Origin: Coleofasciculus sp. LEGE 07092
Lineage (GTDB): Bacteria; Cyanobacteriota; Cyanobacteriia; Cyanobacteriales; Coleofasciculaceae
NCBI RefSeq assembly: GCF_015207375.1
Contig: NZ_JADEWY010000064.1
Coordinates: forward strand, 1-36,603
Length of the DNA: 36,603 nucleotides
Reading direction: 5' to 3'
The position numbers and the translations under genes were made by a program. The notes below the pieces were generated by a model. The model did no database searches. It saw only the letters and a program-made list of their open reading frames with translations, and was not told the origin of the DNA. Below, piece by piece: positions 949 through 7,290 of the stretch (position 1 is its first letter; each line of letters begins with the position of its first letter).

Positions 949-1878
949 ATGTTTGCATTTAAAAAAATTTGGGTATCAGGGTTGCTGGTTCTACTGCTAT
1001 CGCCAATTGTGGCTTGTTCACCCTCATCGGAGTCAGCTTCATCCTCTGGTGATACAAAGACGATGGAACCTTTGGTTACGGGCGCGATTCCAGATCAAGA
1101 TCCGGAAAAGTTGCAACGACTTTACACGAAGTTAGCGGATTATTTGGAAGCTGAGTTGGGTGTGCCTGTAGAGTATAAGCCCGTAACTGACTACACGGCA
1201 GCAGTGACGGCGTTCCGGGTGGGAGATTTGGATTTGGTGTGGTTTGGCGGTTTGACGGGGGTACAGGCGAGATTGCAGGTTGAAGGGGCAGAGGCGATCG
1301 CTCAACGGGATATTGATTCAGAGTTTACTAGTGTATTTATTGCTAATAAAAATAGTGGGATAAACTCTATAACCGATAGTGATGGTTTACAAAAATTAAA
1401 AGGACATACTTTTACTTTTGGGAGTGAATCCTCTACCTCTGGGCGCTTAATGCCTCAGTATTTTCTAGAAAAAGCGGGAGTAATGCCAGAGGATTTCAAG
1501 GGAGAAGTGGGTTTTTCTCAGTCCCATGATGCCACACTTCAATTGGTAGAAGCAGGTACTTACGAAGCGGGGGCGTTAAATTCTCAGGTTTGGAAAAGTC
1601 GAGTTGAAGAGGGGGAAGTGGATCTGGATAAGGTTCAGGTGATTTGGGAAACTCCCACCTATTACGATTATCACTGGGTTATCAATCCAGAGGTGAAAGA
1701 GCAATATGGGGAGGATTTTTCAGAAAAAGTGCAAGCCGCACTGCTTAAGCTTGACCCTAAAAATCCAGAGCATCAGGAGATTTTAGAATTATTTGGGGCT
1801 GATAAGTTTATTCCAACTAAAAATGAAAATTACACTCAAATTGAGGAAGTGGGTCGGAAAATTGGTAAAATAAAATGA
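949..1878 (+). CDS. PhnD-type ABC transporter substrate-binding lipoprotein (putative selenate/phosphonate-class oxyanion)
   Basis: This is a 309-residue extracytoplasmic binding protein. The N-terminus is a lipoprotein signal: two lysines, a hydrophobic run, then IVAC with the lipidated cysteine at 23. The mature part follows the phosphate/phosphite/phosphonate-binding (PhnD) pattern, including GAIPDQDPEKLQ, DYTAAVTAFRVGDLDLVWFG and GSESSTSGRLMPQYF. From memory, this exact sequence style is closest to the branch annotated as putative selenate ABC transporter binding proteins; no selD gene is present here to support that. The ATPase gene follows 81 bp downstream. The matching permease lies 3.6 kb away, beyond an insertion. 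The ABC-importer role is very likely; the ligand (selenate, phosphonate, phosphite or other oxyanion) is inference. Confidence 0.9.
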   Translation: MFAFKKIWVSGLLVLLLSPIVACSPSSESASSSGDTKTMEPLVTGAIPDQDPEKLQRLYTKLADYLEAELGVPVEYKPVTDYTAAVTAFRVGDLDLVWFGGLTGVQARLQVEGAEAIAQRDIDSEFTSVFIANKNSGINSITDSDGLQKLKGHTFTFGSESSTSGRLMPQYFLEKAGVMPEDFKGEVGFSQSHDATLQLVEAGTYEAGALNSQVWKSRVEEGEVDLDKVQVIWETPTYYDYHWVINPEVKEQYGEDFSEKVQAALLKLDPKNPEHQEILELFGADKFIPTKNENYTQIEEVGRKIGKIK

Positions 1879-1959: not shown

Positions 1960-2712
1960 ATGAGCAATGACCCAATTTTTGAGCTAAAAGGGGTTAATCA
2001 GCAGTTTAGTTCTTTTCCGGCGCTGGTTGATATTAACTTGCAAATTTATCCGGGTGAACGAGTGGCGTTAGTGGGGTCAAGTGGTGCGGGAAAAAGTACT
2101 TTGCTGCGTTTGTTAAATGGAACATTGCAACCGACTCACGGGGAAGTTTGGGCGTTGGGACGGAATTTATCGCGTTTGCCATCTCGCAAGTTGCGCCAAA
2201 TCCAAGGGCAAATGGGTACGGTGTATCAACAATTGCATTTAGTTGATAATTTGCGGGTGATTCATAATGTTAATGCCGGACATTTGGGGCGTTGGTCATT
2301 TTTTAAAGCGGCGGTATCACTGGTTTATCCATTGGAGGTAGAAACGGCGCGTCAAGCATTAACTCAGGTGGGTATTCCGGAGAAGCTTTACACTCGCACA
2401 GATTGGCTTTCGGGGGGACAGCAGCAGCGGGTTGCTTTAGCGCGGGTGCTGGTACAAAATCCTTTGGTAATTCTGGCGGATGAACCGATTTCAAGTTTAG
2501 ATCCTCAGTTGAGTCGGGAGGTGATGGATTTGCTGGAAAGCATGAGTGAAAAAGGGGGGAAAACGTTGGTGACAAGCCTTCATTCAATTGAGTTTGCTTG
2601 CAGTCACTGTCAGCGAATTGTTGGGTTGCGTGAGGGGAAGATTTTGTTTGATCTGCCAGCCGTGGAGGTGTCTGAGGAGCGGATTGAGGAGTTGTATAGA
2701 TTGGGATATTGA
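1960..2712 (+). CDS. PhnC-type ABC transporter ATP-binding protein
   Basis: This is a 250-residue cytoplasmic ATPase of the phosphonate-type importer family. It has Walker [10 protein letters not shown] at 39-47, a Q-loop around VYQQ (88-91), the signature [13 protein letters not shown] starting at 150, Walker B VILADEP (170-176) and a switch histidine in TSLHS. The length is normal for PhnC. The start is ATG 1960, overlapping out of frame with nearby ATGs, and no strong ribosome-binding site is visible. It should energise the binding protein at 949 and the fused permease at 5524. The permease is no longer adjacent because a block of unrelated genes sits between them. Confidence 0.93.
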
Positions 2713-2784
2713 AATTGCAGGCAGGGTTAGATTCCAAGCCATGATGCTAAACTGCAAATACACGAGCATTTTGGAGATGCAACC

Positions 2785-3003
2785 ATGCCCTCTCCATTTC
2801 CAGGAATAGACCCTTATTTAGAGCATCCTAGCTCATGGTCGAACGTACATTATCGATTGATTAGTGCGATTCCCTTCGGGATAGCTTCGCTTCACGCTAT
2901 TTCCTTAAATCCCCACTTGCGTCCGAAGTATCGAGTGGTTGTGGAGGAAGCGATTTATCAAACCCTTGGACAAGATTCACTTTTAGATCGCGTAATGGGT
3001 TGA
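2785..3003 (+). pseudogene. DUF4058-family gene remnant carrying an inserted palindromic repeat
   Basis: The 72-residue frame begins MPSPFPGIDPYLEHPSSW, the usual start of cyanobacterial DUF4058 proteins, which are normally two to three times longer. It continues to LRPKYRVVVEEAIYQTLGQDSLL and then stops. The function of DUF4058 is unknown. Within it, about 35 bp at 2866-2900 (with CCCTTCGGG and AGCTTCGCT palindromes) encodes residues out of place between SAI and SLNPHL, where homologues as I recall them have a short junction. This looks like an in-frame insertion of a dispersed small repeat. The reading frame ends just before the 3' end of the opposing radical SAM gene. I consider it a truncated, probably non-functional copy at the left edge of the block inserted into the ABC operon. 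Confidence 0.7.
2866..2900. repeat. Small palindromic dispersed-type repeat inside the DUF4058 remnant
   Basis: The segment starts GCGATTCCCTTCGGG and ends TTCACGCTAT. It contains the short palindromes CCCTTCGGG and AGCTTCGCT and has GCGAT/GCTAT-type ends. Repeats of this style are scattered through cyanobacterial genomes. Here it adds codons in frame without a stop. Whether it occurs elsewhere in this genome cannot be tested from this window. Confidence 0.5.
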
Positions 3004-3031
3004 TTAGTTAAACTGTTGCATGATCAGCGCG

Positions 3032-4090
3032 TCATACTTTCACAACTTCACTACTAATTTGTTGATCTAGTGTTGAACCTATCACGGATGAAGTTTCAGG
3101 TGATGAGTTTAAAGAATCACTACTCATCAGGGTTGGGGATGCAGCTTCCCATTTTTCAACTGTTGGTCTATACCACCAAGATTCAAGTAATCTTACATCC
3201 TCAACATATTCCTTAAGTCCTCGATCTGGCCAAATATGAAGACGCTCCTTACAATCGATGTGTTCGGCTGCTTTTTCAATGGCTTCCCACTGCCTGAGAA
3301 AATATTCTGCCCAGGTTTTTTTATTCATAACCGAACCAATGAATTCCACTCCTGCCGCCAGCATTCGCTTTCCATTAGTTCCACGAGCATTGATGGGTTC
3401 CCAAAAAATAACCTCTGGCTCAAGCTCCATTAACTTTCCTAAATGTATTTTGAAATCTTCAAATTCCATATTGGGAGGAGTAGGAGCTGCTGCTATGTAC
3501 AATCGGCATCCTGCTTTGTATCCCTTTACAAGAGCTTTATAGCGTTCAGAAGGAGGAGGAGCTTGTGGTTCTATCTTGTGGCTTTGCTCATCACTTAAAT
3601 TTGGCAGGCTCATTCCTACAGTGACATTTGGATTTTGCAGAATGTCAATATCTTTCACCCATAACAAGCCACGAGTGAGGATTCTAACTCGTTTGTTATG
3701 ATTTAATAAGACTTCAACGGTTTTGCGAGTTACTTTTGCTGTCTTATGATTCTGGTAAGGGTCGGTTCCAGAGCAGAGTAGAGTAACACCCTTTCCTGCT
3801 CGTGTATTACGCCAACTTTTTTTTCGACTGAGGATTTGTTCTAGTTTTTCAGGTATCTCCTCTCGGACAAACAGATATTCACCCCAATCCATTTGAGGAT
3901 CGCGCACTCCTTGATTGCGTAGGCTGATTTGCCTAGTCCTAATTGCTGGAGTTGATGGCACATAGCAGAAAGTACATCCATGTAAACAACCAGATGCTAC
4001 ATTAATTACATAGTCACATAAACCTTTTTTATTGAGCGCACTCTCTTGCAGGGGATTAACAATTTTTTCTGTTCCTTGAGTTTTAGACAT
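3032..4090 (-). CDS. SPL-like radical SAM protein (COG1533 type), possible partner of TcmP
   Basis: This is a 352-residue protein starting at ATG 4090, with a good GGAGG ribosome-binding site about 10 bases upstream. The radical SAM signature CxxxCxxC is C35, C39 and C42 in SGCLHGCTFCYV; it should hold a [4Fe-4S] cluster that cleaves S-adenosylmethionine. Further family-like segments are LLCSGTDPYQ, a VRILTRG strand and VTVGMSLP, as in spore-photoproduct-lyase-like radical SAM proteins. About 45 serine-rich residues at the C-terminus look disordered. It is not true spore photoproduct lyase by context; the substrate is unknown. It is divergent from the TcmP-like gene at 4232 with a 141-bp gap, which suggests joint control. 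Both sit inside a split ABC operon, consistent with acquisition as a module. Confidence 0.85.
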   Translation of the reverse strand: MSKTQGTEKIVNPLQESALNKKGLCDYVINVASGCLHGCTFCYVPSTPAIRTRQISLRNQGVRDPQMDWGEYLFVREEIPEKLEQILSRKKSWRNTRAGKGVTLLCSGTDPYQNHKTAKVTRKTVEVLLNHNKRVRILTRGLLWVKDIDILQNPNVTVGMSLPNLSDEQSHKIEPQAPPPSERYKALVKGYKAGCRLYIAAAPTPPNMEFEDFKIHLGKLMELEPEVIFWEPINARGTNGKRMLAAGVEFIGSVMNKKTWAEYFLRQWEAIEKAAEHIDCKERLHIWPDRGLKEYVEDVRLLESWWYRPTVEKWEAASPTLMSSDSLNSSPETSSVIGSTLDQQISSEVVKV

Positions 4091-4231
4091 AAGGTGGAAT
4101 CCTCCGATTATGAGCGAAAGGGTTAAGGCAGTAACTATTTCAAAAATATAAGGCTATTATATAAATGAAAATGGCAGAGCTATACTAACATAATACATCA
4201 ATAATTTAATTAAATTGAGAAGAAGGTTAAA
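4091..4231. promoter_or_regulatory. Shared divergent promoter region of the radical SAM and TcmP-like genes
   Basis: This AT-rich 141-bp gap separates two divergent start codons. Towards TcmP there is TATACT at 4181-4186, a possible -10 box without a convincing -35, and AGAAGG just upstream of ATG 4232. Towards the radical SAM gene there is the GGAGG ribosome-binding site. No operator palindrome is obvious. Confidence 0.35.
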
Positions 4232-5488
4232 ATGAATAAAAACGAAACATTCTGGAGTGGTGACGGAAGTTATTTACCTAAAATTAAGCCGCATACAAAA
4301 GCTAAACATCGAATCTTGGCTGATTATCTAGAGAGATATTTAGTTACTCTTTGCGGAAACAATAGAGGCAAAAGAAAAACTTTAACTTTTGTTGATGGTT
4401 TTTGTGGTGGGGGTATGTATCGCGATCCAGATAATAATGATCAATTATGCGAAGGCTCTCCTTTAATCATGATCAAAACTCTTCAAAAAGCTTTAAACAT
4501 AATCAGGACTGAAAAGTCAAAACCAAATTATGAAATTAATGAAAAATTTATATTTATTGATAGCAACGAAGAACATATTGCCTGTCTGAAAAACCAGATA
4601 GCCAAAGTGGGATTAGAAGATTATTTGCATAACTTAGATATTTGTGAATTTATTGTCGGTGAATTTGAGAATTGTATTAATCGGTATATTGATGAAACTA
4701 GAAAGCGGAAGGGTTCATCATTTTTCTTCTTAGATCCTTTTGGCTATTCTGATGTATCGATGCAAAGTATTCGTTCTATTATTAGTCTGGGTAAATCTGA
4801 AATTATTTATACCTATATGATTGAGGATATTATACGACATTTATACGAAAGAAATAATCTATATGGTAATATTTATAACAACATTTTAGAAACTGAAGGT
4901 TACTATAATTTTTCTAGCTGTTTGGATGGATTTGCAAAACAAAAATATATAAGAGACGAGACCTATAGATTGTTCAGAGAAAGAGGTCAAGTTCCATATA
5001 TATATGCATTTGCATTAATGCCTAATAGAACTCAACCCAAATATTACTTGATGCATTTAGCTAGTAATCCACCAGCTCAAAGAGAAATCAAATATACTTT
5101 ATGGAACAATAATACCTTAGACTTAGTTTACCAGTTTGAATATGATATTTATGGTCTTGGATTTAGAACACCCGATTATTATGAAAATAATTTAAGTGTT
5201 ATTGACATAGTTCAAGAAAATAAAATTAAATGCAGGGATAATTTACGCAAATCTTTAATGCCAATAATTTATGAAATGCCTGATGGTATTCCTTTGATTG
5301 AACTTCATAATTCAACCATGCAAATGAATCCTGCTACCCTGGATGATTATATTAAAATGATAAATGAAGAAGTCAGTGAAGGAGAAATAAATATTTTGAG
5401 AAATGGCAAAATAACCCCTGCCAAAAACCTAAAAGCAGATGATTTAATTGTTAAAGCAAAATTCAAACAGTTGCATTTGTTCTCTTGA
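4232..5488 (+). CDS. Three-Cys-motif partner (TcmP-like) protein with class-I methyltransferase-type fold
   Basis: This is a 418-residue protein with a strong AGAAGG ribosome-binding site. The pattern fits the TcmP family: N-terminal HTKAKHRILADYLERYL, then a Rossmann-like motif I, TFVDGFCGGG (52-61), an acidic strand end FIFIDSN (D110), and FFFLDPFG (164-171) where methyltransferases have a DPPY-like motif. TcmP proteins are named for being encoded beside 'three-Cys-motif' proteins; here the neighbour is a radical SAM protein with a CxxxCxxC motif. The catalytic activity is not established as far as I know. The gene is visibly AT-rich, with AAA, AAT, TTA and ATA codons, unlike its GC-balanced neighbours, which suggests recent horizontal transfer. 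It ends 35 bp before the permease gene. The family call is fairly confident; function is unknown. Confidence 0.8.
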   Translation: MNKNETFWSGDGSYLPKIKPHTKAKHRILADYLERYLVTLCGNNRGKRKTLTFVDGFCGGGMYRDPDNNDQLCEGSPLIMIKTLQKALNIIRTEKSKPNYEINEKFIFIDSNEEHIACLKNQIAKVGLEDYLHNLDICEFIVGEFENCINRYIDETRKRKGSSFFFLDPFGYSDVSMQSIRSIISLGKSEIIYTYMIEDIIRHLYERNNLYGNIYNNILETEGYYNFSSCLDGFAKQKYIRDETYRLFRERGQVPYIYAFALMPNRTQPKYYLMHLASNPPAQREIKYTLWNNNTLDLVYQFEYDIYGLGFRTPDYYENNLSVIDIVQENKIKCRDNLRKSLMPIIYEMPDGIPLIELHNSTMQMNPATLDDYIKMINEEVSEGEINILRNGKITPAKNLKADDLIVKAKFKQLHLFS

Positions 5489-5523
5489 AAATAGAACCTT
5501 ATTAGATATGAATTTTAGGTAGT

Positions 5524-7290
5524 GTGAAGCATCACCGCTTATCTCGTCCCCCCCTACTGAATCAGCAAACAGGATGGGGACTAATATTTTTAGCAGCAAT
5601 AAGCCTCTCCCTCTACCAAGCCGGAATCTTTCAGCAAGATATAGTTAATCCTGGCGGATTTCCCCTACTTTGGCGTTTTCTCAAAGCCAGTATACAGCCA
5701 GATTTAAGTCCTGAATTTCTGCGCCTGACGCTGGATGCTACCCTCACAACCCTAGCCTATGCGGTTTGTGGTACGTTTCTCAGCGTCTTACTCGGTATTG
5801 TGGGAGGAGTATTAACCTCTGAGGTGTGGTGGTTAGCCGTATTTCCCCGTCACTTCCGTTATCAACCCTCTGGAATTCAGTTAGGATTACGAACAGCGCT
5901 GGCAGTTCCTAGGGCAATTCACGAACTGCTTTGGGGATTGTTTTTTGTCAATATTTGGGGACTTGATCCGTTAGTGGCAATTTTAGCGATCGCTATTCCC
6001 TTCGGTGCAGTGGTTGCTAAAGTATTTTCAGAGATTCTCGACGAAACACCTCGCCAACCCCTAATCGCGTTGCTCAATAGTGGCGTTGCACCACTAACTG
6101 CATTTCTCTACACCCTAATTCCCCAAGCGTTTTTAAATCTACTTTCCTATACGTTCTACCGCTTTGAATGTTCAATTCGTTCAGCAGCAGTACTGGGAAT
6201 TATCGGTGCAGGAGGTTTGGGCTATGAAATTCTGCTCAGTCTGCAATCCCTGCGCTATCAGCAACTCTGGACATTTTTCTACGCCCTAATCATCTTAAAC
6301 GGTATTGTAGATTTTGGGAGTGCTGGGTTGCGCGATCGCTTGGGGTGCACCAGTCGGTTAGACTTAAATGCGCGGAAATCATCCAATACAGTTCGATTAA
6401 ACTCTCCTAGCGGGGAAGATGGGTTAGGTTTGCCTTCTCGTCCTACATCCCCACTTAAATCACAAGTCTATAAAAGAGATACTCTAGTCAGTTTCGTGAG
6501 TGTAGCAGTTTTGCTGCTGATTCCTTTTTGCTTCTGGTACGTTCACCCAGACGTTTCTAAACTTTGGTCGCCTCGCACCTGGACATTACTCGTTGATGCC
6601 GTTCAGGTATCCATTCCACCGGATATTAGCGGGGAACAATTCCCGAAATTACTGATATTGTCGATGCAAACTCTATCGATGTCCGTTTTAGCGATCGCTT
6701 TAGCGGGTATCGGTGGTATCTTATTATCATTTCCGGCGGCTTATAACTTTTTTCTGCCGGGTGGGTTGCTCAATCCCAGTTTTCAGGATAAAAGCAACTC
6801 GATGGGGGCGTGGCTAAGTTTTCTCGCGACACGAATTGTTTTACTGTTCTGTCGTGCTATTCCCGCACCCATTTGGGCATTAGTGGTTCTGTTTATTTTA
6901 TTTCCCGGTATCTTACCGGGAGCGATCGCTCTCGGTTTACACAATCTCGGCATTTTAGGGCGACTGATGGCAGAAGTCACCGAAAACCTCCCCCAGCCGC
7001 CTTTGCAAGCCCTCAAAGCCCAAGGAGCCCCGGCTGCCTTAGTGTTTCTCTATGGGGTGCTACCCATGACTCTGCCCCGCTTCCTGGCGTATATCCTCTA
7101 CCGTTGGGAAGTCTGTATGCGAGAAACGGTGATTGTGGGTTTGGTGGGGGCTGGGGGTTTAGGGCGTTTGCTCAACGAACAACTCAGTAGTTTTGATTCT
7201 CAAGGGGTACTAACCAGCCTCGGATGCTTAGTGATCCTCACCTTCTTAGTTGATTGGGTGAGTAGTGTCATGCGGCAAGCTCTCCGGTAA
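5524..7290 (+). CDS. Fused double-domain ABC permease, PhnE-PhnE type
   Basis: This 588-residue inner-membrane permease is about twice the length of a single PhnE and clearly contains two copies of the permease domain. The first copy (about 1-275) includes RAIHELLWGLFFVNIWGLDP and ends GIIGAGGLGYEILLSL. The second (about 325-588) includes ALVVLFILFPGILPGAIALG and ends GLVGAGGLGRLLNEQL. A hydrophilic linker (about 280-315) separates them. One chain can therefore supply both membrane halves of the importer. The start is GTG 5524 with a weak AGG upstream. It belongs with the binding protein at 949 and the ATPase at 1960 but is cut off from them by a 2.8-kb block. It may now need its own promoter or read-through from the TcmP-like gene. 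It converges with ppx, 15 bp away. Confidence 0.9.
   Translation: MKHHRLSRPPLLNQQTGWGLIFLAAISLSLYQAGIFQQDIVNPGGFPLLWRFLKASIQPDLSPEFLRLTLDATLTTLAYAVCGTFLSVLLGIVGGVLTSEVWWLAVFPRHFRYQPSGIQLGLRTALAVPRAIHELLWGLFFVNIWGLDPLVAILAIAIPFGAVVAKVFSEILDETPRQPLIALLNSGVAPLTAFLYTLIPQAFLNLLSYTFYRFECSIRSAAVLGIIGAGGLGYEILLSLQSLRYQQLWTFFYALIILNGIVDFGSAGLRDRLGCTSRLDLNARKSSNTVRLNSPSGEDGLGLPSRPTSPLKSQVYKRDTLVSFVSVAVLLLIPFCFWYVHPDVSKLWSPRTWTLLVDAVQVSIPPDISGEQFPKLLILSMQTLSMSVLAIALAGIGGILLSFPAAYNFFLPGGLLNPSFQDKSNSMGAWLSFLATRIVLLFCRAIPAPIWALVVLFILFPGILPGAIALGLHNLGILGRLMAEVTENLPQPPLQALKAQGAPAALVFLYGVLPMTLPRFLAYILYRWEVCMRETVIVGLVGAGGLGRLLNEQLSSFDSQGVLTSLGCLVILTFLVDWVSSVMRQALR

Follow-up and report, generated by a model that had tools for sequence, protein, structure and literature searches.

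A mobile pair of radical SAM and TcmP genes in an importer operon of the cyanobacterium Coleofasciculus

Introduction

TcmP proteins (TIGR04474) take their name from three-Cys-motif proteins, presumably those of the DUF5131 family (PF07505), and TcmP and DUF5131 are listed together in PADLOC as the candidate systems PDC-M30 and PDC-M41, for which we know of no proof of function. Here we analyse a stretch of 36,603 nucleotides (the window) from Coleofasciculus sp. LEGE 07092 (contig NZ_JADEWY010000064.1), in which a TcmP gene and a radical S-adenosylmethionine (SAM) gene lie together inside an importer operon. The pair resembles PDC-M30 and PDC-M41 in its TcmP A component and in consisting of two adjacent genes, one for a CxxxCxxC-type protein and one for TcmP. 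It differs in that the B component, DUF5131, is replaced by a radical SAM protein that matches neither a PADLOC model nor PF07505, and in that the gene order varies between loci (divergent, convergent, or with the partner up- or downstream on the same strand).

The names of TcmP and of its DUF5131 partner, as well as the listing of the candidate systems, were already known. Among 32 P. aeruginosa strains with PDC-M30, 68.8% are phage-resistant according to one study, which is a correlation only (PMC10855318). In Sinorhizobium meliloti, the TcmP gene SMa2243 and the defence gene hna (SMa2245) appear in a table of expression changes in another (PMC12445080). The literature searched, mostly outside subscription journals, yielded no functional study of the TcmP/three-Cys-partner pair.

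Results

TcmP is paired with one of two radical SAM families

We queried 386 genomes of the phylum with TIGR04474, the radical SAM protein of the window and PF07505, and counted a TcmP match over the cut-off as paired when a radical SAM gene lay within 3 kb. A partner is present at 55 of the 56 TcmP places, and it is DUF5131 at 44 of them, the window type at 11 and both at none. The sole unpaired TcmP contains a stop, as do two further of the 56, and one gene broken in two (genome G347) provides two of the places; all five partnerless TcmP rows are either below the cut-off or contain a stop. Pairing of TcmP with a radical SAM gene is the rule, and the original prediction that the two genes form a unit co-occurring in other genomes was right. 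It did not recognise that the radical SAM protein of the window is other than the three-Cys (DUF5131) protein of the family name, nor that TcmP is exchanged. The window's radical SAM protein has no match to PF07505 up to E 0.1; the rest of its genome has none either.

The window-type count used 14 of 74 rows (identity at least 50%; the remainder, at most 35% identical, look PA0069-like), two of the 14 being short fragments without TcmP (G107:C31 and G113:C1). All 12 places at least 65% identical to the window's radical SAM protein, one of them a fragment, lie at most 487 bp from a TcmP match. The orientation of the two genes is not conserved, being divergent at five and co-directional at seven of these 12 places, and convergent at 28 of the 44 DUF5131 places. 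For DUF5131, counted from 73 of 86 rows after 13 short or weak ones were dropped, TcmP is missing at 30 of the 73 places; DUF5131 therefore does not need TcmP.

The distribution is patchy, with TcmP in 57 of the 386 genomes of the phylum and in 11 of 126 haloarchaeal genomes. The same 11 haloarchaea carry full-length window-type radical SAM genes, two each, which lie on the contig of TcmP and no more than about 3.2 kb away; 3 of these 22 genes have an internal stop. DUF5131 was found in none of the 11. Three further haloarchaeal genomes have only C-terminal partial window-type matches. In the haloarchaeon G441 (contigs C3, C6 and C10), open frames of about 170-230 residues occur at five places; their matches to the window-type radical SAM profile are confined to its C-terminal half and leave out the part that holds the Cys motif.

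In named genomes, we located the window-type radical SAM gene at 60 loci (47 in cyanobacteria, 13 in haloarchaea), and TcmP lies beside it at 57 of them (44 of 47 and 13 of 13). This total includes six divergent partners of the Pseudanabaena type, of which the single one scored against TIGR04474 exceeds the cut-off (56.6 bits against 53). Two radical SAM genes are present at 11 of the 13 haloarchaeal loci. The three cyanobacterial loci without TcmP adjoin phage terminase genes in one case and an integrase or ParA-like gene in two. Window-type radical SAM genes without annotated TcmP were also seen on a Gloeothece plasmid (L152:11989-12939) and on a Halorussus vallis plasmid (L201:8944-10014), the latter among tightly packed small genes that all run in one direction, with an integrase gene some 8 kb further on.

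The radical SAM protein is constant while TcmP is exchanged

The radical SAM proteins of ten other cyanobacterial genomes are 64-68% identical to that of the window, and eight other long TcmPs are 38-53% identical to the window's. TcmPs occur as long, mid (~375 residues), short (~290 residues) and Pseudanabaena-type (~280 residues) classes. Along a radical SAM tree with 78 rows, the class of the partner changes at least 17 times, against a mean of 34 after shuffling; the count is rough, as the tree is a quick one and 24 of its 78 rows are haloarchaeal, mostly paralogues sharing one TcmP. The long rows L118, L135, L191, L149 and L124 are unsure in their placement, and fewer changes are required if only the starred branches are considered (4 for the long class, 7 for the short one).

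The exchange is seen directly at a site shared by Microcoleaceae MO_207.B10 (L130) and Okeania SIO2B3 (L131). The left flanks are 87% identical over 917 bp, the radical SAM genes together with the right flanks are 87% identical over 4.8 kb, and the radical SAM proteins are 94% identical. Between them, one locus has a long co-directional TcmP and the other a short divergent one, 23% identical over 171 residues. In a further pair of loci (L125 and L117), one flank and the radical SAM gene are common (87% at the DNA level), a long TcmP is swapped for one of the Pseudanabaena type, and the right flanks diverge shortly after the gene. The radical SAM gene is thus conserved and its TcmP replaced, in one case with the two flanks preserved.

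The radical SAM protein resembles spore photoproduct lyase in predicted fold

The radical SAM protein of the window matches PF04055 with 41.2 bits (cut-off 29.5), and C35, C39 and C42 are invariant in 35 alignment rows. No PADLOC family matches it, nor a haloarchaeal relative. Profile comparison with DUF5131 gives an hhalign probability of 18% (E 0.0013) over 120 columns from CxxxCxxC on, and judging from these profiles the two may be of common descent inside the superfamily.

A model built from 35 rows (predicted local distance difference test, pLDDT, 86.6) is matched best by spore photoproduct lyase (SPL; PDB 4fhc), with Z 18.9 and a root-mean-square deviation (rmsd) of 3.3 over 259 residues; SuiB is the next fold family (Z 15.9). 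SPL is a lesion-reversing enzyme, which reverses the spore photoproduct. The likeness lies in the best fold match and in a cysteine in a loop after a strand, but the identity is 15%, the window type is coupled to TcmP at nearly all named loci, and scores for the SPL families stay under their cut-offs (12.8 against 27 for PF20903, 12.3 against 400 for TIGR04070). Of 78 window-type rows, 76 have the loop cysteine after the strand 103-105, and two lack the Cys pattern. Cyanobacterial proteins have this cysteine in CSGTDPY, and in haloarchaeal ones it stands five residues later (SSGTDCY, SFSTDCY). Cys106 of the window follows the model strand in LLCSGTD, and SPL has Cys140 in EAACTSD, which we take to be its hydrogen donor; equating the two cysteines is a guess from a positional match made by eye.

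Two other families come close. The best NCBIfam matches, to the PA0069 and Rv2578c families (77.8 and 50.2 bits), share the TDPYQ loop but are well below the cut-offs (360 and 430), so that the protein falls outside the PA0069 family (NF033668); all 12 PA0069-like relatives that we read have serine at the loop position (MSSVTDPY or MSSATDPY). Radical SAM mobile pair protein B (TIGR04470), likewise the radical SAM protein of a mobile pair, is a weak match (47.3 bits, cut-off 410), and its partner is presumably another radical SAM protein (pair protein A), not TcmP.

Window-type radical SAM genes of Lyngbya, Microcoleaceae and Okeania (L129:8631-10598, L130:3151-5124, L131:8861-10819 and L132:3941-5908) carry an intein-like insert of about 340 residues at the third Cys of CxxxCxxC, as read in three of the four. 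The insert of L131 matches LAGLIDADG_3, and NCBIfam holds a similar case in the Rv2578c family.

TcmP is nearest to an rRNA methyltransferase in predicted fold

The TcmP of the window belongs to TIGR04474 (171.7 bits, cut-off 53). Its AlphaFold2 model (29 rows, mean pLDDT 85.7) is closest to E. coli RlmJ, the 23S rRNA A2030 N6-methyltransferase (Z 17.5, rmsd 3.1 over 218 residues), followed by Coq5 (Z 14.8) and the tRNA G26 N2,N2-dimethyltransferase Trm1 (Z 14.6), which are effectively tied; Foldseek ranks RlmJ first and Trm1 second. Identity to either RNA enzyme is only about 11%, and TcmP has an extra C-terminal part. The consensus of motif IV is DPFG in the long, DPWG in the mid and DPYG in the short class, with one long TcmP having alanine at the third place. 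Trm1 chains in the PDB share the DPFG string, as DPFGS or DPFGT, unlike RlmJ, in which motif IV is presumably DPPY. The last 90 residues of TcmP form a helix-helix-helix-strand-strand arrangement in the model, which would suit a winged helix.

Low GC content is a property of TcmP genes in general. Among the 60 named loci, after those without TcmP or with less than 2 kb of flank were dropped, the GC content of TcmP is below that of its radical SAM gene at 43 of 43 cyanobacterial and 12 of 13 haloarchaeal loci, and below that of the flanks at 43 of 43 and 13 of 13; for DUF5131 pairs it is lower than the partner's in 29 of 32.

The pair is inserted in an importer operon

In the window, the pair splits an importer of the PhnD/C/E type between its ATPase (end 2712) and its permease (start 5524) (Table 1). 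The layout given by the original prediction, with the CxxxCxxC radical SAM and TcmP genes divergent over 141 bp between these two importer genes and a truncated DUF4058 gene at one edge, agrees with the open reading frames (ORFs) and the family matches. Both inserted genes have a single match in their own 6.7-Mb genome.

Table 1. Features of the importer operon and its insertion, in window coordinates.
Feature	Position	Strand	Evidence
Substrate-binding protein of the interrupted importer	949-1878	+	TIGR04553 (putative selenate), 372.6 bits (cut-off 250)
PhnC-like ATPase, last importer gene before the insertion	1960-2712	+	ABC_tran; TIGR02315 (PhnC) 247.7 bits, slightly under the cut-off of 266.1
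DUF4058 5' remnant, left edge of the insertion	2785-3003	+	PF13267 positions 1-59 of 254, 61 bits; 72 codons and stop
Radical SAM, window type, SPL-like, 352 residues	3032-4090	-	PF04055; C35xxxC39xxC42, loop Cys106; fold match SPL
Divergent intergenic region, 141 bp between the two starts	4091-4231	.	ORF coordinates
TcmP, 418 residues, methyltransferase fold, motif IV D168-P169-F170-G171	4232-5488	+	TIGR04474; fold match RlmJ; PADLOC PDC-M30A
Fused PhnE-type permease, first importer gene after the insertion	5524-7290	+	TIGR01097, 313.1 bits (cut-off 216.7)

We compared 19 permease loci of relatives by tblastn, over up to about 1.5 kb on each side. Neither the radical SAM gene nor TcmP was found at any of them, as the idea of a later insertion would have it, and the pair at the importer site was not seen in any sampled relative. 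At 11 of the 19 loci an ATPase match precedes that of the permease, both on one strand, with a gap of 78-602 bp in ten and of 854 bp in one, where an opposite-strand ORF of 283 residues lies between the two genes. The two closest relatives (permease 72-75% identical) have a permease without ATPase or substrate-binding protein within the 13.7 and 9.5 kb read. Neither outcome that would have spoken against the original prediction was seen: the homologues are neighbours in other genomes, and the relatives do not have the gene order of the window. The insert is best read as a two-gene mobile module that landed in the importer operon of this cyanobacterium.

Base composition is in keeping with the AT-richness of TcmP that had been noted. 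Compared with 22 other non-overlapping ORFs of at least 150 residues in the window, the GC content is 0.303 for TcmP (z -8.9) and 0.410 for the radical SAM gene (z -3.6); the substrate-binding protein gene has 0.434 (z -2.4), the ATPase 0.471 and the permease 0.480. Both inserted genes are AT-rich, TcmP far more so, but since low GC is a habit of the family it is not only a sign of arrival in the window. Between 2600 and 5700, promoters, terminators and repeats were not found above chance (promoter-like matches being no more frequent than in shuffled sequence), and the search revealed no convincing target-site duplication.

The importer may not be for phosphonate, as its substrate-binding protein scores well above the cut-off of a putative selenate family. 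In G008 (L155:4038-6857), one of the closest relatives, an ORF that we read as LpxD-like adjoins a solitary fused PhnE-type permease. A function of the pair linked to the importer, for instance in modifying an imported compound, was considered and rejected: the viewed neighbours vary by locus and the relatives' importer loci lack the pair, although the surroundings of other pairs were not specifically searched for importer genes. The insert has no visible link to transport.

Plasmids, defence genes and viruses

The pair is carried on plasmids, of which we viewed ten annotated stretches. On the Nostoc plasmid pC052_C it lies beside BrxA, brxL, pglZ and a DarT-like gene, and on a Haladaptatus plasmid it follows DUF499, DUF1156 and helicase genes, which we take for a defence cluster. 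TcmP matches PDC-M30A (2.5e-25) and PDC-M41A (1.9e-13) in PADLOC, and DUF5131 matches PDC-M30B and PDC-M41B.

The suggested enrichment in defence islands was looked for and did not emerge beyond such single examples. Of the 664 neighbour ORFs within 8 kb, 128 were scanned, namely the two nearest of at least 120 residues at 65 loci; L118 and L127 were lost from the set, four loci were removed as duplicates, and Pseudanabaena-type TcmPs account for 4 of the 128. The control consisted of 128 ORFs out of 174 in 20 arbitrarily chosen stretches of eight genomes that carry the pair. PADLOC families matched at E 1e-10 number 119 among neighbours and 58 in the control, counted by family and not by protein; the families are redundant and, among those listed, PD-T4-6 models occur in both sets, which makes the difference weak, and we do not use it as support.

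Viral contigs yielded no relative of TcmP or of the window's radical SAM protein, and a single-sequence TcmP scan of the named genomes returned nothing, probably owing to overly strict patterns. Six phage records have radical SAM matches of 23-33% identity. One of them is Acidianus two-tailed virus, an archaeal bicaudavirus, whose radical SAM protein aligns with 62% of the window's at about 32% identity.

Discussion

Our preferred explanation, which we hold tentatively and with slightly less than even confidence, is that the pair is a mobile module in which a constant radical chemistry on nucleic acid is combined with an exchangeable partner of methyltransferase fold, most likely for antiviral use, and thus a variant of PDC-M30/M41 with another radical SAM protein. 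The SPL-fold protein would carry out the same radical reaction on a nucleic acid everywhere, and the loop cysteine may serve in it as hydrogen or thiol donor. TcmP, with its RlmJ fold and the DP[FYW]G motif as in Trm1, would methylate or bind the same nucleic acid, and its variable body would set the place where the module acts. TcmP would require the radical SAM protein, and hence hardly ever occur alone, while the radical SAM protein may act on its own, as in a prophage. Antiviral use would be the most likely reason for the exchange of TcmP, the low GC content, the carriage on plasmids and the patchy distribution. Both the nucleic-acid substrate and the defence role are inferred here; the original prediction had left nucleic acid, peptide and small molecule as targets, and the resemblance of both folds to nucleic-acid enzymes favours the first.

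Several observations weigh against this explanation. Fold matches show no function, an automatic alignment of the window's protein to the SPL stretch leaves Cys106 and Cys140 unpaired (z 0.8), and the Pseudanabaena-type class of TcmP has no DPxG motif. A simple two-step scheme does not account for the haloarchaeal loci, in which each TcmP goes with two radical SAM genes. Defence genes, going by product names, are present in only 3 of the 10 annotated plasmid stretches, with a VapC toxin in one other. Nor do the two nearest neighbours at the 65 loci show a clear excess of defence genes; their commonest Pfam family is the housekeeping PNTB (5 of 128).

A related possibility is that the genes form a toxin and its antidote, TcmP setting a harmful mark on nucleic acid that the SPL-like radical SAM protein reverses, in which case solitary radical SAM copies in phages and plasmids would be counter-measures. 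This would fit the lesion reversal by SPL, the position of TcmP as the AT-rich, less conserved member, and the asymmetry by which TcmP is rarely alone (1 of 56, and then with a stop) while the radical SAM gene can be (3 of 60 loci for the window type, besides the solitary DUF5131 genes). However, at the site shared by L130 and L131 nearly identical radical SAM proteins serve widely different TcmPs, so that a specific antidote would have to act on a mark common to all of them, and the haloarchaea have two radical SAM genes for each TcmP; we regard this alternative as rather unlikely.

We consider it unlikely that the pair is an ordinary RNA modification pair of the housekeeping kind, patchy in occurrence and inserted by chance, with no role in defence. 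The closest folds do include housekeeping RNA enzymes, and the Pfam families commonest among the neighbours are metabolic, but the patchy occurrence, the carriage on plasmids, the low GC content and the exchange of TcmP at one site speak against it. Maturation of a small peptide or metabolite precursor, decorated by both enzymes as for ribosomally synthesized and post-translationally modified peptides (RiPPs), is very unlikely in our view, even though pairs of radical SAM and methyltransferase genes are common in RiPP clusters and SuiB, the second-best fold family of the radical SAM protein, is a RiPP maturase. Among 1797 ORFs of 20-110 residues outside the core and within 1.5 kb at 48 cyanobacterial loci, we saw no small ORF shared between distant loci, judging from the twelve largest clusters, which join only loci with radical SAM proteins at least 87% identical. 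Nor is an exporter annotated next to the pair in the ten plasmid stretches, though many neighbours there are hypothetical.

The antiviral module can also be drawn in a bolder form, which we regard as doubtful. The constant SPL-like radical SAM protein would write or erase a radical-made mark on nucleic acid, exchangeable TcmPs would decide its site, and phages would exert the pressure behind TcmP swapping at a fixed site, much like that of the specificity subunits of restriction systems. The core would be common to cyanobacteria and haloarchaea, the latter with a duplicated radical SAM protein per TcmP.

As far as the literature searched goes, the second, SPL-like radical SAM family in place of DUF5131, its duplicate in haloarchaea, the loop cysteine peculiar to this family and the replacement of whole TcmPs at one site are new. 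Many genomes have annotations for TcmP and its three-Cys partner, neither of which has a known job. The two alternative radical SAM families, the loop cysteine and the TcmP swap supply concrete residues to test and narrow the question to which nucleic-acid change is made, and against whom. Radical SAM chemistry is used in immunity by viperin, and if the module is antiviral, radical chemistry of the SPL type would join it there.

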